A stretch of 63,089 nucleotides of DNA, from contig CALWIW010000008.1 in NCBI GenBank assembly GCA_944380855.1, forward strand, positions 1 through 63,089, written 5' to 3'. The DNA comes from an uncultured Clostridia bacterium. Lineage in GTDB: Bacteria > Bacillota > Clostridia > Oscillospirales > Acutalibacteraceae. Shown piece after piece: positions 11,945-17,565 of this stretch (position 1 is the first letter of the stretch; each line of letters begins with the position of its first letter). The position numbers were made by a program, and so were the translations under genes. The notes beneath the pieces were generated by a model that saw only the letters and a list, made by a program, of their open reading frames with translations, had not been told where the DNA came from and did no database searches.

Positions 11945-12595
11945 TTATTTGCACAGTGCTTTTAAATTATCAATCGCCTTACGGCTGTCCTCTGCTTTGA
12001 ACACCGCCGTACCTGCAACGCACACATCGGCACCGCCTTTATAGGCGTGTGCAATTGTATTTTCGTTTATACCGCCGTCAACCTGGCACAAAATGTCTTT
12101 GCCCAGTCTTTGAGCCTCGGCCTTTATTTTGCCGATTTTCTCAATATTTTCAGCCATATAGGACTGACCGCCGAAGCCAGGTTCAACAGTCATAACCAAA
12201 GCCAGCTCTATATCCTTAAGATAAGGGAAAATTGCCTCGGCAGGGGTATTAGGTTTTACAGCCAAGCCTGCCTTTACATTTTTTGAGTGAATTTTATCTA
12301 TTGTTTCCTGTATATCCGAGTCGCACTCAACATGGAAAACAATGTAATCGGCTCCGGCATTTGCAAAATCCTCCACATATTTAAGAGGGTCGCTTATCAT
12401 AAGGTGAACGTCAAAGGGAAGCTTTGTAAATGGTCTTATCCATTTTATCACCGGTGCACCGAAGGTTAAGTTCGGCACAAAATGCCCGTCCATAACGTCA
12501 AGATGTATCCAGTCGGCTCCTGCTTTGTCCATTTTTTCTGTTTCCGCTCCCATTTTAGAGAAATCACATGAAAGCATTGAAGGTGCTATAAGCAT
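11945..12595 (-). CDS. rpe: ribulose-phosphate 3-epimerase
   Basis: A 216-residue TIM-barrel enzyme that interconverts ribulose 5-phosphate and xylulose 5-phosphate in the pentose phosphate pathway. Signature segments are IAPSMLSCDF, DWIHLDVMDGHFVPN with metal ligands, DVHLMI, VMTVEPGFGGQ and the C-terminal QVDGGI with ADVCVAGTAVF for phosphate binding. The frame is open upstream, but the ATG chosen lies 9 nt after GGAGG; an ATG three codons earlier is too close to that site. Length matches the family (about 216-225). Its promoter region has been interrupted by a family A element inside a family B element. Confidence 0.95.
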   Translation of the reverse strand: MLIAPSMLSCDFSKMGAETEKMDKAGADWIHLDVMDGHFVPNLTFGAPVIKWIRPFTKLPFDVHLMISDPLKYVEDFANAGADYIVFHVECDSDIQETIDKIHSKNVKAGLAVKPNTPAEAIFPYLKDIELALVMTVEPGFGGQSYMAENIEKIGKIKAEAQRLGKDILCQVDGGINENTIAHAYKGGADVCVAGTAVFKAEDSRKAIDNLKALCK

Positions 12596-12623
12596 TTTTT
12601 CCATCCTCCTTTTTCTTTTTTGT

Positions 12624-12952
12624 CCGCCTTGCAAAACTTTATCTTAAAAAGCTTATACAGTAAATGTTGTGGTAAAAATTTTGGGATTCCAAAGGGACTA
12701 CTGTCCCTTTGGCAGGTGGTTTGGAGGACAGCGTCCTCCAAGGTCTTAAAATACAGTAAAATACGCAGGAGGGGAGCAAAAAACAGTCCGGTGAACTGTT
12801 TTTTGCCGGGGAACCCACGTCAGGGGTTCCCCGACAACTATTTATTTTATTTCAATTTTACTTTTTACTCCAACTATTAACAAAGAGCTTTTAAAATAAA
12901 ACTCATCACAAGGCGGGCGAAACCTTTTCCTTAATCTTTAGGAATGGCTCGC
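12624..12952 (-). repeat. family B element, copy B3, split by a family A element
   Basis: Read on the minus strand, the head box (GAGCGAGCCATTCC...AAAGGTTTCGCCC) and left arm CCGCCTTG (12909-12916) are followed by about 20 nt of the usual loop. A 231-bp family A insertion comes next, then the rest of the loop and the matching arm CAAGGCGG (12624-12631). Removing the insertion restores a normal B module. Confidence 0.75.
12655..12885 (+). mobile_element. family A MITE-like element, copy A2, inserted in B3
   Basis: This 231-bp element is flanked by a direct AGCTT repeat (12650-12654 and 12886-12890), consistent with a 5-bp target duplication. Its ends are inverted relatives (TGTTGTGGTAAAAA and, inverted, TAGTTGGAGTAAAAAG). 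Internally it has the CCAAAGGGAC and TTGGAGGAC palindromes, an AAAAAACAGT/ACTGTTTTTT palindrome and GGGGAACCC/GGGGTTCCCC. It has no transposase gene. Confidence 0.75.
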
Positions 12953-13012: not shown

Positions 13013-16003
13013 CTACGGCTTCTGTATAAATGACGGAACAATTACCGCCGCAAGCCAAAATACCACGAAAAGTGACATTTCCAAAGTCTTTACGGAGCTT
13101 ACGCCCGAATACAAAGCCAAAGTGGAAACAAGCAAAATTCCCACTATAACGGCGATAGTCTGCAAAAGAACAGCCAAAGCAATATTTGCTTTAAGTCTTA
13201 CACAGCCTGAAATTGCCCTGAGAAGTGAGGATATTTTTCCGTTTGTGGCAAGATAGGCACGGGATTTTTCCTCCTTTGCCTCTGTAACTTCTATGCAAAC
13301 ATTGGAAAGACCAGTAGGTAAAACCTTAACCGAGCGGTAATAAATGCCGAAGTCCTTGGCGATTTTATCTTCAGTCACATTGTAGTCAGTGGTGCTTACT
13401 ATTATGCTCAGTCCGTTTTCCTCGGCTCTTTGCAGTTCCTCGCACATTGTGGTGTTTACAGAGTATTTAAGGGAGAAAACTGCACAGAGCTGTCCTGCGT
13501 GGGCAAAGTACACCACAGGGTCGCCGTCGGAGAATTTTTCTTCTTCTTCCTCTTCCAGAACATCTACTCCGTACTTTTCCAAAAGCAGTCTTGTTCCTAT
13601 TAAAATTCTTTCGCTGTTTACCCAGCCTACAAGTCCTGCTCCGTCCTCGTACAAAACGCTTTCAACCTCCGGAAGCTTTTCTTCCTGCTTTTCCAAAAGC
13701 TTCTTGAAAACAAACTGCACGGGATTTTTAGCCTCTTTAAGCACTGCATAAGCGGCAATAATTGCTTCTTCTATTCTGTGCTGTTCAAAATCCTTGGCTC
13801 TTACAATCTCCACATAACCCTCAGGGTAGAGCTGGCATGAGTCCACCATAACCGCGGAAGTGTCGCAGAACTGTTTTACGGAAGGATAACCTGTTATCAT
13901 GGCACCCTTTTGGCGGAGAGTTTTGCAGAATTTCGTAATGGGGAAATTGGCAAGCAGTAAATTTCCCACAGGCACGCTTACCGCAGTTGTTACCGCCAAG
14001 GTGGTGACAGCCCCTATAAAGGAACCGTAGAATACCGCATATAAAATCGAAATTACAAGGGAGCAAACCAAGGTAAAGGGTGCCAAAGCTCCTGAGCTGT
14101 CCTCTCCGGGGTCGGGAGCATATGAAAGCTTTAAATAATTGCTTAAAAATGAGGTTTTATGCTGATAAGCTATAATAGGTCTGCCCACAGCGGTGCCGCT
14201 GAGCATTTTTGAGGCAATTTCCTCATTTTCATAGATTTTAGCAGAATATGTCTGCTGTTCCGAGGTTATAAATCTTAAATTTTCCTTTGTGCGTTTCAGC
14301 ATAAGCATTTTTCCCAGATAGTTTCCGATAATACAGATTATAACTATCAGGGTGTAGAATGAGTACTGCTGGCTGAAGAAGCTTCCCGACGCAAACAGTG
14401 ACACAACGCTTTGCAATACCGTAGCCATAATAGCTACAGCCAAAGCCGTATCCGAGTTGCCCCTGAAGCTTGTCAGTGCTGCAAATCCGTTAAGAATTGT
14501 GGTTTTTGCAGTTACAACGGTTGCCGCAACAATTATTACATTGATAATGCACAGGGTAAGTGGTGCCGAGGAATGAGTTATATCGGCAATTTCAGGCACC
14601 ATAAGACGCCAAATGCTTACTCCCAGGGCAAACAAAGCCAAAACTCCCAAAATAACACAGCGGAAAAACAGGCTTTTTAAATTTAGGTTTATTTCGCTTT
14701 TTACGTTTCTGACATCTTCTTTTCTTTCAATGTCCTCAATAAGCTCTTCGGACTTCATCTGCTGGGTTTCGGAAACGCTTTTATATCTTTTTCCGGTAAA
14801 TATGCTTTTTAAAGTCTGTAAGCCGTGACGCTTTATAAAATCAAAATTAATTTTTTCTTCTCCGTCCTCGTCCAGCAGAATTTCTCCTTTGGTTCTCTTT
14901 GCGGCACTTTTCGGAACGGCATAACAGCTGTATGCGTCTCTTACAGTGGCTGAAAACTTTCCTGCCTTAACATATATCTTTTCGGAATTTTTGTCCCTTT
15001 CATATGAAGGCGGTCTTACCTTTGTAAAATCAGGGGTAATAACATTTGATTTCAATTGCTCCTGCCGGGAGGTTGTGGAAGTCTCTGCTGTTTTTTCGCG
15101 GTTACTATTTTTGACGCTGTCCGCTCTTTCCTGCTGCCTGTTTCTTTTTTTGTTTTTCGGAAGCTTTTTCTTTCTTTCAGAAGATGGCTGAGGCAGTTTT
15201 TCCGGCTTTTCGTTTTCTTTCGTCAGAATATTTTCTGTTTTTTCGGTTTTGTTTTCTTTTGGAGGAAGTTCGTTCTTTGGTTCTTCCTGTTTTTCCTGCG
15301 GTTTATCAGTTACAGGCTTGTCCGAAATTTCAGATGCTTCCTGCGGTTCAGTCTTTTTTTGCAAGTTTCTTTTGTTCTTTTTTCCTGAGGAATAGTTCTC
15401 TTTTTTTAATTCCTTTTTTCTTTTTACATTGTCATGAGCTACTATGTCCTCATGCTTTTTTTCCTGTTCCTCTTTCTTTTCCTGCTCTTCCTCAAAATCG
15501 CTTAAATCTACGTCAATTGTGTTTATGTCCTGAATTACCGGCTTGTTATGATTTTTCAGATAATAATTTCCGTCGGCATACATATCGTCGCTTTCTTCTT
15601 CCGATACATAATCCGTAAAGTGCTTTGGCATAAAGCTTCTTTGCTCGTCTGTTGAAACAGCTTTTTCCGCCGCACTGTCAAAAATTTCAAAATCATTGAA
15701 CTTTTCCGACTGTTTATCTTCTTCTTTTTTTATTTCTCTTATATGGAAAATAACTTCGTTTGCGGAGTCGTCTTCTGTTTTTTCGTTATTGGAAGATGTT
15801 TCCTCAACGGAAGCTTTGTCTTTATCTCCGTTATTAAAAATTTCCGCAGCTATGCGGCTTTTTTTTCTGCGTTTTTTCTGCTGGGGCTTTTTTTCCTCTT
15901 CGCTGAGCTCTCTGGTTTCTTTGAGAATAGATTCAATAAGTTTGTCCTCATCGGAGGTATCTCTATTTGCAAAGTCCAGAATTTCCTTTGTCTGTTTATC
16001 CAC
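13013..16003 (-). CDS. degenerate P1B-type ATPase-like membrane protein with long disordered N-terminus
   Basis: A 996-residue protein. Residues 1 to about 440 are highly charged low-complexity sequence rich in Lys, Glu, Ser and Gln. Residues about 445-993 follow the plan of a P1B heavy-metal ATPase: four helices (about 445-567), a shortened actuator-like segment, two helices (640-685), a cytoplasmic block (690-935) and two final helices. Family echoes are SVPVG where the metal-binding CPC normally lies, VMVDSCQLYP where DKTGTLT is expected (only the Asp kept), RILIGTRLLLEKYGV in the nucleotide domain, and VSTTDYNVTEDKIAKDFGI in place of TGDN...A..IA..GI. The GDGxND hinge is absent. ATP-driven transport is therefore unlikely; a scaffold or sensor role is a guess. 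The GTG start has AGGAG 8 nt upstream. It follows rlmB by 44 nt. Confidence 0.75.
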   Translation of the reverse strand: MDKQTKEILDFANRDTSDEDKLIESILKETRELSEEEKKPQQKKRRKKSRIAAEIFNNGDKDKASVEETSSNNEKTEDDSANEVIFHIREIKKEEDKQSEKFNDFEIFDSAAEKAVSTDEQRSFMPKHFTDYVSEEESDDMYADGNYYLKNHNKPVIQDINTIDVDLSDFEEEQEKKEEQEKKHEDIVAHDNVKRKKELKKENYSSGKKNKRNLQKKTEPQEASEISDKPVTDKPQEKQEEPKNELPPKENKTEKTENILTKENEKPEKLPQPSSERKKKLPKNKKRNRQQERADSVKNSNREKTAETSTTSRQEQLKSNVITPDFTKVRPPSYERDKNSEKIYVKAGKFSATVRDAYSCYAVPKSAAKRTKGEILLDEDGEEKINFDFIKRHGLQTLKSIFTGKRYKSVSETQQMKSEELIEDIERKEDVRNVKSEINLNLKSLFFRCVILGVLALFALGVSIWRLMVPEIADITHSSAPLTLCIINVIIVAATVVTAKTTILNGFAALTSFRGNSDTALAVAIMATVLQSVVSLFASGSFFSQQYSFYTLIVIICIIGNYLGKMLMLKRTKENLRFITSEQQTYSAKIYENEEIASKMLSGTAVGRPIIAYQHKTSFLSNYLKLSYAPDPGEDSSGALAPFTLVCSLVISILYAVFYGSFIGAVTTLAVTTAVSVPVGNLLLANFPITKFCKTLRQKGAMITGYPSVKQFCDTSAVMVDSCQLYPEGYVEIVRAKDFEQHRIEEAIIAAYAVLKEAKNPVQFVFKKLLEKQEEKLPEVESVLYEDGAGLVGWVNSERILIGTRLLLEKYGVDVLEEEEEEKFSDGDPVVYFAHAGQLCAVFSLKYSVNTTMCEELQRAEENGLSIIVSTTDYNVTEDKIAKDFGIYYRSVKVLPTGLSNVCIEVTEAKEEKSRAYLATNGKISSLLRAISGCVRLKANIALAVLLQTIAVIVGILLVSTLALYSGVSSVKTLEMSLFVVFWLAAVIVPSFIQKP

Positions 16004-16047
16004 AATCAACACTCCTGTTTTTCCTTTACGTTACGAATTTATCTCAA

Positions 16048-16833
16048 CTATCTGTCTTTTGCAATTTCATACATTAAAATGCCTGCGGCAACCGAGGCGT
16101 TAAGTGAATTTATCTTTCCTTTCATGGGAAGTGACACAATAACATCGCATTTTTGTCTTACAAGTTTTCCTATACCTTTTCCCTCGTTGCCTATTACCAA
16201 AGCTACCGCACCTTCAAAATTGCACTTTGAACACTCTGTTCCGTTCATGTCGGCTCCGAATATCCACAAGCCTTTTTCTTTAAGCATATCTATTGCGGCA
16301 GGTATATTTGTAACTCTTGCCACGGGAACGTATTCTACCGCTCCGGCTGAGGCTTTTCCCACGGCATAGCTTAGTCCTGCACTTCTTCTTTTTGGGATTA
16401 TTATACCGTGAACTCCGGCACATTCCGCAGTACGAATAATAGCCCCCAAATTATGAGGGTCTTCTATTTCGTCCAAGACAACCACAAAAGGCTTTTCACC
16501 TCTTTCCTCTGCCAAAGCAAAAATATCATCAACCGAGGCGTAGTCTTTTATTGCGGCAAGAGCGGCAATACCCTGGTGGTTTTCACCGGCACAGAGAAAA
16601 TCAAGCTTTTTGGAGTCTACCTCTTTAATGGTTATTCCTTTTTCTTTTGCCTTTGCGATTATAGCCACAACGCCGCCGGAGGCAGAGTTTTTAGCCACTA
16701 AAAGAGTGTCTATGGCTCTTCCGCTTCTCAAAGCTTCCGTAACGGGATTTCTTCCTGCGATTACGTCTTCACGCTTTTCGGCAAAATTTCTTTCAGTGTC
16801 ATTTCTTTTAAATTTTTCTTTTCTTTCTTTCAT
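16048..16833 (-). CDS. rlmB: 23S rRNA (guanosine-2'-O)-methyltransferase RlmB family
   Basis: A 261-residue SpoU/TrmH-type methyltransferase that uses S-adenosylmethionine to methylate a ribose 2'-hydroxyl, by homology G2251 of 23S rRNA. The N-terminal substrate-binding domain begins at VIAGRNPVTEALRSG. The knotted catalytic domain shows motif 1 DEIEDPHNLGAIIRTAE, motif 2 VIGNEGKGI and motif 3 LPMKGKINSLNASVAAGI. A basic extension of about 20 residues precedes the usual start. AGGAAG lies 8 nt before the ATG. The next gene on the strand is the degenerate P-type ATPase-like protein. Target assignment is from family similarity; close paralogues (TrmH, YacO) are hard to exclude. Confidence 0.9.
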   Translation of the reverse strand: MKERKEKFKRNDTERNFAEKREDVIAGRNPVTEALRSGRAIDTLLVAKNSASGGVVAIIAKAKEKGITIKEVDSKKLDFLCAGENHQGIAALAAIKDYASVDDIFALAEERGEKPFVVVLDEIEDPHNLGAIIRTAECAGVHGIIIPKRRSAGLSYAVGKASAGAVEYVPVARVTNIPAAIDMLKEKGLWIFGADMNGTECSKCNFEGAVALVIGNEGKGIGKLVRQKCDVIVSLPMKGKINSLNASVAAGILMYEIAKDR

Positions 16834-17031: not shown

Positions 17032-17565
17032 TTAGAGAAGTACCCCGTAACTGTTAAAAAAATTGTCCCAAAAGAGGAAATTGCGGGGAGGGTAAAGGGT
17101 AAAGCAAAACATTACACCCACAAAAGTTCCAAGCAAAAACACCCAAAATAAAAAATATCTTGTGCTGTTTATGTTTTTTACTGCTGTTTCTGATATAAAA
17201 TAAAAGAAATAAGACGCTAAAATTTCACAGGCTGTAAGCTGATACCACAGATATGTATTAAATACTTCAATGAGCAGAAGATTAAAAAAACAGCAGAAAA
17301 GGAAAAGGAAAAAGAGGGATATGATTTTTGCCTTAACATAGATTTTAAAGTTTTTAACGCCGCATAAAAGCTCCAGCGACCACCAAACAAGACAAACCCA
17401 AAAAACAGGCTTTGAGTATTCCCATGGACTGTAGTTGACCCTTGAAAAAATTATCCCCAATACACCTTGGTCAAACATACTGTAATAAAGGGTTAATAAA
17501 GGTATTCCGAAAACAGGGAAAAAAATTCTACAGGTGTTTTTAAAAAAACGTATTTTTTTGCTCAA
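17032..17565 (-). CDS. small integral membrane protein, DUF6512-like
   Basis: A 177-residue hydrophobic protein with about five predicted membrane helices. The segments FSRVNYSPWEYSKPVFW near the N-terminus and FTLYPPRNFLFWD near the C-terminus resemble conserved blocks I associate with the DUF6512 family of Clostridia; this is recalled similarity, not a search. The start is TTG, with AGGGG about 10 nt upstream. It stands alone between rlmB and the hom-lysC operon, all on the minus strand. No function is known or inferred. The strong aromatic content (many Phe and Trp) is typical of such membrane proteins. Confidence 0.65.
   Translation of the reverse strand: MSKKIRFFKNTCRIFFPVFGIPLLTLYYSMFDQGVLGIIFSRVNYSPWEYSKPVFWVCLVWWSLELLCGVKNFKIYVKAKIISLFFLFLFCCFFNLLLIEVFNTYLWYQLTACEILASYFFYFISETAVKNINSTRYFLFWVFLLGTFVGVMFCFTLYPPRNFLFWDNFFNSYGVLL

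Follow-up and report, generated by a model that had tools for sequence, protein, structure and literature searches.

Next to rlmB in the window (the whole stretch of DNA analysed, 63,089 nucleotides) lies a gene whose product probably belongs to an undescribed, order-wide family of pseudo-ATPases derived from P1B ATPases, serving in the membrane as a scaffold or sensor and not as a pump. That these proteins are dead, maintained and found throughout the order is well supported by comparisons of genome sequences, and the role of scaffold or sensor is what we infer from the parts that have been kept.

Gene structure and relationship to P1B ATPases

The initial annotation had described a long intact frame at 13013..16003. 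The frame is open over 13013-16012 (-), with 999 codons counted from the first GTG, and the start claimed at 16003 is the likelier GTG: a Shine-Dalgarno-like AGGAG lies 8 nt ahead of it, which makes a length of 996 aa probable. Residue numbers are counted here from 16012, and subtracting 3 gives those of the 996-aa form (Table 1). Promoter-like sites number 8 (7.1 in shuffles) and terminator-like sites 13 (5.0 in shuffles), the latter on both strands and mostly within genes. A PHROGs search gave no match.

Table 1. Positions of the putative pseudo-ATPase gene, its parts and its neighbours in the window.
Feature	Positions	Strand	Basis
Pseudo-P1B-ATPase gene	13013..16012	-	Open frame, P1B homology, Shine-Dalgarno-like site
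N-terminal tail, residues 1-440, charged, low-complexity	14693..16012	-	Composition
KLIESILKETR, form taken by the N-terminal short motif in the window	15911..15943	-	Motif count in tails
MA, MB, M1 and M2 membrane segments, residues 446-575	14288..14677	-	Hydropathy, profile alignment
Actuator-domain loop, shrunken, TGE deleted, residues 576-642	14087..14287	-	Loop lengths vs canonical pumps
M3-M4, residues 643-695, VPV for CPC	13928..14086	-	Alignment columns, hydropathy
P/N headpiece, residues 696-937, full-length N-domain, GDGxND stretch deleted	13202..13927	-	Alignment columns, spacing
DSCQL replacing DKTGT, residues 724-728	13829..13843	-	Alignment columns
M5-M6, residues 938-999	13016..13201	-	Hydropathy
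rlmB, 23S rRNA (G2251) 2'-O-methyltransferase	16048..16833	-	TIGR00186, 249.6 bits (cut-off 160.15)
rpe, ribulose-phosphate 3-epimerase, downstream of the pseudo-ATPase gene	11945..12634	-	

Over their whole length, the ~560 residues at the C-terminus can be aligned with P1B ATPases. Comparison of the family profile with a profile of 25 canonical P1B ATPases (hhalign) covered 541 columns with an E value of 2.2e-37 and a probability of 99.94%, and the match to PDB 3rfu (LpCopA) went from E 3.8e-10 with the single sequence to 1.6e-39 with the family profile; these values rule out a chance resemblance to P-type ATPases. Hydropathy revealed eight hydrophobic segments at the P1B positions MA, MB and M1-M6, seven of them with a peak of at least 1.6 in 47-53 of the 53 aligned members and M2, which is weak, in 26/53. 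The P1B architecture first proposed for the C-terminal part is borne out by this eight-segment layout together with the profile alignment, and the product, as judged from its sequence, is a descendant of copper-pump (P1B) ATPases.

What the family has in common with the P1B (Cu+) ATPases of the CopA type (TIGR01511, TIGR01525, PRK10671) is the whole-length alignment, the eight membrane segments, an equal spacing of M4 proline, P-domain start and N-domain, and two glycines, G793 and G806, which we take to be those of the N-domain nucleotide pocket. Unlike the CopA-type pumps, it lacks DKTGT, TGE, GDGxND, CPC and SEHP, its actuator loop has about half the length, a 30-residue deletion shortens the P-domain, and a long low-complexity tail precedes the membrane part. 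The window's protein scores far under each curated cut-off: NCBIfam CopA matches it with E 5e-17 and 61 bits (cut-off 1316), the other matching NCBIfam P1B models all stay under their cut-offs, and Pfam yields HAD alone, also under cut-off. For the other 52 aligned members, the top Pfam/NCBIfam hits are likewise weak, with weak Pfam HAD similarity in 6/53. Since no Pfam or NCBIfam model exceeds its curated cut-off for the window's protein, the family has likely been overlooked in annotation.

Catalytic motifs and retained residues

With the 560 C-terminal residues as query, 60 related genomes, that of the window among them, yielded a match in 56 cases. The best match per genome was taken as the family locus (the window and L031-L085), and five weaker matches from genomes of the same order (L086-L090), which carry DKTGT, TGE, GDGxND and CPC, served as canonical pumps. 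Column counts are based on 53 members, as three cut or broken ones (L047, L059, L081) were left out. A scan of genome contigs supplied 46 named loci, and both sets, after removal of duplicates, contig-start members and four that were broken, cut or short, made up 84 proteins; in the order sample, motif reading took in five more genomes beyond this set.

Neither DKTGT nor GDGxND was found in any of the 56 family loci, the 46 named loci or the 84 proteins, and full motifs were present in 26/26 canonical pumps examined (five from own-order genomes and 21 loci of the class sample). The initial annotation had named retention of these motifs in orthologues as evidence against its view, and no orthologue examined (0/84) retains either. 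The motif loss, as read from these alignments, is family-wide and not that of a single strain.

Relative to P1B ATPases, DKTGT and CPC have been lost by substitution, and the TGE part of the actuator loop and GDGxND by deletion. The window's protein reads DSCQL at residues 724-728, where DKTGT had been reported as replaced by DSCQLYP, and VPV at 680-682, in agreement with the earlier reading of the CPC position. TGE and GDGxND are indeed missing, but they have not mutated: their alignment columns are empty in 53/53 members because both fall within deletions. The actuator loop has a median of 68 residues (55-79) in the 53 members versus 120-133 in the five canonical pumps, with ~54 residues, TGE among them, missing in 53/53, and the P-domain stretch with GDGxND is 21-25 residues long versus 55, with 30 missing in 53/53. 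Spacing is equal to that of the canonical pumps both from the M4 proline to the DKTGT position (43-44 residues vs 44) and from there to the Asp of TGD (145-162, median 154, vs 155-157, median 155), so the N-domain is complete and two catalytic stretches have been cut out.

Among the 53 members, the successive residues of DKTGT are kept in 27 (D; the window's protein among them), 0 (K), 3 (T), 0 (G) and 0 (T), and the CPC position has C in 4, P in 46 and C in 1. SEHP of the N-domain is lost (H 0, E 1, P 39), and so are two other sets of metal ligands, YN of M5 (N 0/53) and MxxSS of M6. The claimed loss of TGD stands in so far as the window's protein reads TTD at 874-876, but the Asp of this motif, D876, is kept in 51/53 members. 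This family-specific conservation extends to G793 (52/53), G806 (53/53), N878 (44/53) and Y850 (52/53), the last at a position where canonical pumps have Asp. From what is generally held about P-type ATPases, Y850, D876 and N878 presumably lie at the N/P hinge.

Distribution, selection and gene neighbourhood

In a sample of the order, which we take to be Oscillospirales of GTDB, 241 of 248 genomes gave one match each at E<=1e-50. Two of the seven misses (G449 and G468) carry divergent copies beside rlmB, at 174 and 145 bits, in which neither DKTGT nor GDGxND occurs; in the five others no strong RlmB match (at most 70 bits) occurs either, and for the one of them followed to its contig, G301, the absence is an assembly gap, because the contig breaks off before the place where the gene would lie. 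These three cases speak against a loss in some lineages of the order. Nine order genomes in the class sample (n = 196) score at least 403 bits across the whole model, and in none of its 187 genomes from other orders was the family gene found, their matches being partial, mostly at model positions 204-480, and reaching at most 141 bits. The phylum sample (n = 249), which overlaps the class sample in some class genomes, contributed three matches at E<=1e-50, all from the same order; 226 of its rows had no match. Among the members with a name are Caproiciproducens, Acutalibacter and Pseudoruminococcus (Acutalibacteraceae at NCBI).

Between the window and a genome of the same genus (G001), the whole gene has a dN/dS of 0.076, with 0.052 in residues 441-999, 0.032 in the P/N loop and 0.069 in the tail. 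The neighbouring rlmB has 0.048, rpe 0.040 and the two ABC genes 0.053-0.062. All these values are rough as absolute figures because dS is 0.8-2.9, near saturation. This near-saturation is probably also why the whole-gene value exceeds that of both halves. Compared with the headpiece (dN 0.05, dN/dS 0.03), MA-M2 and M3-M4 change more quickly (dN 0.10-0.12, dN/dS 0.06-0.07), and M5-M6, with dN 0.05, does not. The dN/dS check called for at the outset thus returned 0.03-0.08, rough with dS near saturation, and indicates a gene under purifying selection.

Two of the 56 members are interrupted, one by an in-frame TGA (L047, G058) and one by a frame split (L081, G047) into frames of 565 and 180 aa. 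The TGA, at L047:5253, stands at a conserved Gly position before a conserved Lys, and could be a sequencing error, decay or recoding. Recoding of TGA in three genomes of genus g230 was considered separately and rejected, the flagged TGA falling outside the open frame.

The end of rlmB lies 35 nt upstream of the pseudo-ATPase gene in the window. The same order of genes on the same strand recurs in 54/56 loci; L059 and L068, the two without it, start at a contig end. In 52 of the 54, the genes are -196 to +207 nt apart, with 4-nt overlaps in L061, L062 and L069. The exceptions are L058 (4212 nt) and L047 (1106 nt), the latter because its frame is cut by the stop. In the named loci, rlmB is upstream in 38/46, and each of the other 8 opens at the edge of its contig; 37 of the 38 frames overlap rlmB or lie within 43 nt of it and one lies at 364. 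The proposed linkage is therefore conserved in 54/54 loci reaching that far, and adjoining in 52. Protein distances of RlmB and the family are correlated across 48 genomes (Mantel r 0.68; at most 0.34 in 2000 permutations).

No universal downstream partner was found across the 56 loci: rpe is downstream in 7, and hence no universal neighbour, an ABC-exporter cluster is up- or downstream in 13, and a gene for an EF-G-like translational GTPase is nearby in 9 (L036, L047, L052, L054, L058, L073, L078, L082, L085). The nine EF-G-like genes, directly downstream and on the same strand in 7 loci, match an EF-G-like ORF (L185:8896-10998) at 47-78% identity. Between aspartate kinase and rlmB, the window also has a hydrophobic-looking ORF of 177 aa (17032-17565, -), for which no NCBIfam model gave a match at E<=1e-10 and which changes more rapidly than its neighbours (dN/dS 0.12, rough).

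The initial annotation's view of a maintained pseudoenzyme is upheld by motif absence (0/84), presence in 241/248 and two further genomes, dN/dS of 0.03-0.08 (rough) and rlmB linkage. Absence, presence and low dN/dS likewise rule out a recent decay specific to one strain.

The N-terminal tail and possible roles

Residues 1-434 of the window's tail are 21% K/R and 23% D/E, and tail length ranges from 96 to 1213 aa (median 404, 83 tails). The tail is presumed to be cytosolic and, because of its composition and spread of lengths, disordered. A short N-terminal motif of the form [FY]-[ST]-[LIVM]-[DE]-[DE]-I-L-x-E recurs among tails: the core [ST][LIVM][DE][DE]I[LDI] occurs within the first 120 residues in 25/83 (shuffle mean 0.1, maximum 1) and is absent from 58/83, among them the window's tail, which has the variant KLIESILKETR. 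The corresponding degenerate DNA pattern was found in 11 places in 10/60 genomes (2 places for the reversed control) and in none of the window's own genome; eight of the 11 are in family tails and three in other proteins, away from the N-terminus. As the strict pattern is nearly private to the family among the 60 genomes, it suggests that the motif has a dedicated partner.

Four tails (L045, L049, L053, L062; 4/83 vs 0.1 in shuffles) have a motif such as WSMEDIDALLAD, which to our eye is similar to EIDALL near the N-terminus of FliM; with so few tails, a FliM-like EIDxLL was rejected as a family feature. A juxtamembrane F-x-[LVFI]-x-G-x-E-E-E occurs in 12/83 tails (0.3 in shuffles), those of L036, L037, L041, L042, L048, L050, L063 and five named loci.

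As a scaffold or sensor, the protein would be anchored in the membrane by its eight helices, and its cytosolic, strongly constrained N-domain-like headpiece, with the hinge residues Y850, D876 and N878 and the pocket glycines G793 and G806, may bind a ligand or a protein without phosphorylation. The long disordered tail would recruit a partner in the cytosol, in many members through the N-terminal short motif. Catalytic loss would have happened once, in an ancestor of the order. The near-order-wide presence beside rlmB makes a new job probable for a dead pump-like protein. Adjacency to rlmB might also place it in growth- or ribosome-related physiology; this is the weakest step, drawn from gene order, and such linkage can be kept for expression alone.

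Pseudoenzymes such as pseudokinases have lost catalytic residues across whole families while the gene is kept, a scaffold or allosteric role being likely, and the present family resembles pseudokinases in its catalytic loss, its retention and its likely scaffold or allosteric role. A literature search, with most subscription journals outside its coverage, returned no bacterial P-type ATPase pseudoenzyme family. FUPA 24, a P-type ATPase relative, has a very long N-terminal extension and an uncharacterised role, as here, but its C-terminal region retains the functional motifs that our family has lost (PMC3573892). According to PMC10654040, prokaryotic P1B sequences are without the long terminal regions of eukaryotic ones, a rule from which the family, with a long N-terminal tail in a prokaryote, departs.

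A channel or passive carrier that keeps the P1B membrane domain and no longer uses ATP would fit the retained membrane segments (M2 weakly) and M4 proline (46/53), but we consider it unlikely: the metal ligands are lost from CPC (C 4/53 and 1/53), M5 (YN, N 0/53) and M6 (MxxSS), and MA-M2 and M3-M4 change faster than the headpiece, though M5-M6 do not. Slightly more doubtful is that the protein regulates a genuine P1B pump of the same cell, with which it would pair via its membrane part to dampen or adjust export. The window's genome does encode, on contig C14 of G000, a P1B ATPase that is intact and has every motif, and 9/9 order genomes of the class sample have further profile matches; however, it is rlmB that is conserved as neighbour, the residues of the metal site needed to sense metal are lost, and no second P1B-like ORF was found in the 56 loci (~4-19 kb each) apart from the other half of the split member.

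An active enzyme of altered chemistry, for instance a phosphatase or nucleotide hydrolase in the HAD-like part, seems very unlikely, given that the family is without the DKTGT Lys, the GDGxND Mg2+ site and a conserved Asp at the phosphorylation site. D724 is nevertheless Asp in 27/53 members, so that some residual chemistry is possible if judged by that residue alone, D876 is kept, and six members have weak HAD similarity. All pump motifs are lost and two members are interrupted, as might be expected of a decaying pseudogene of a metal pump; this is hardly tenable, being refuted family-wide by presence in 241/248 and two further genomes, long frames, dN/dS of 0.03-0.08 and newly conserved residues.

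A bolder version of the scaffold or sensor reading, which we regard as unlikely, is that of an order-defining and possibly essential membrane hub, in which one copper-type pump, through excision of its two catalytic stretches, would have become once a non-pumping receptor. It would couple a cytosolic signal at the former nucleotide hinge to a partner that the disordered tail holds, perhaps passing the state of the ribosome to the membrane. The near-universality of the gene in the order makes it a candidate core gene, and its conserved residues are direct targets for mutation. If the preferred reading of a scaffold or sensor holds, the P-type ATPase fold would be shown to be able to serve as a receptor or scaffold.
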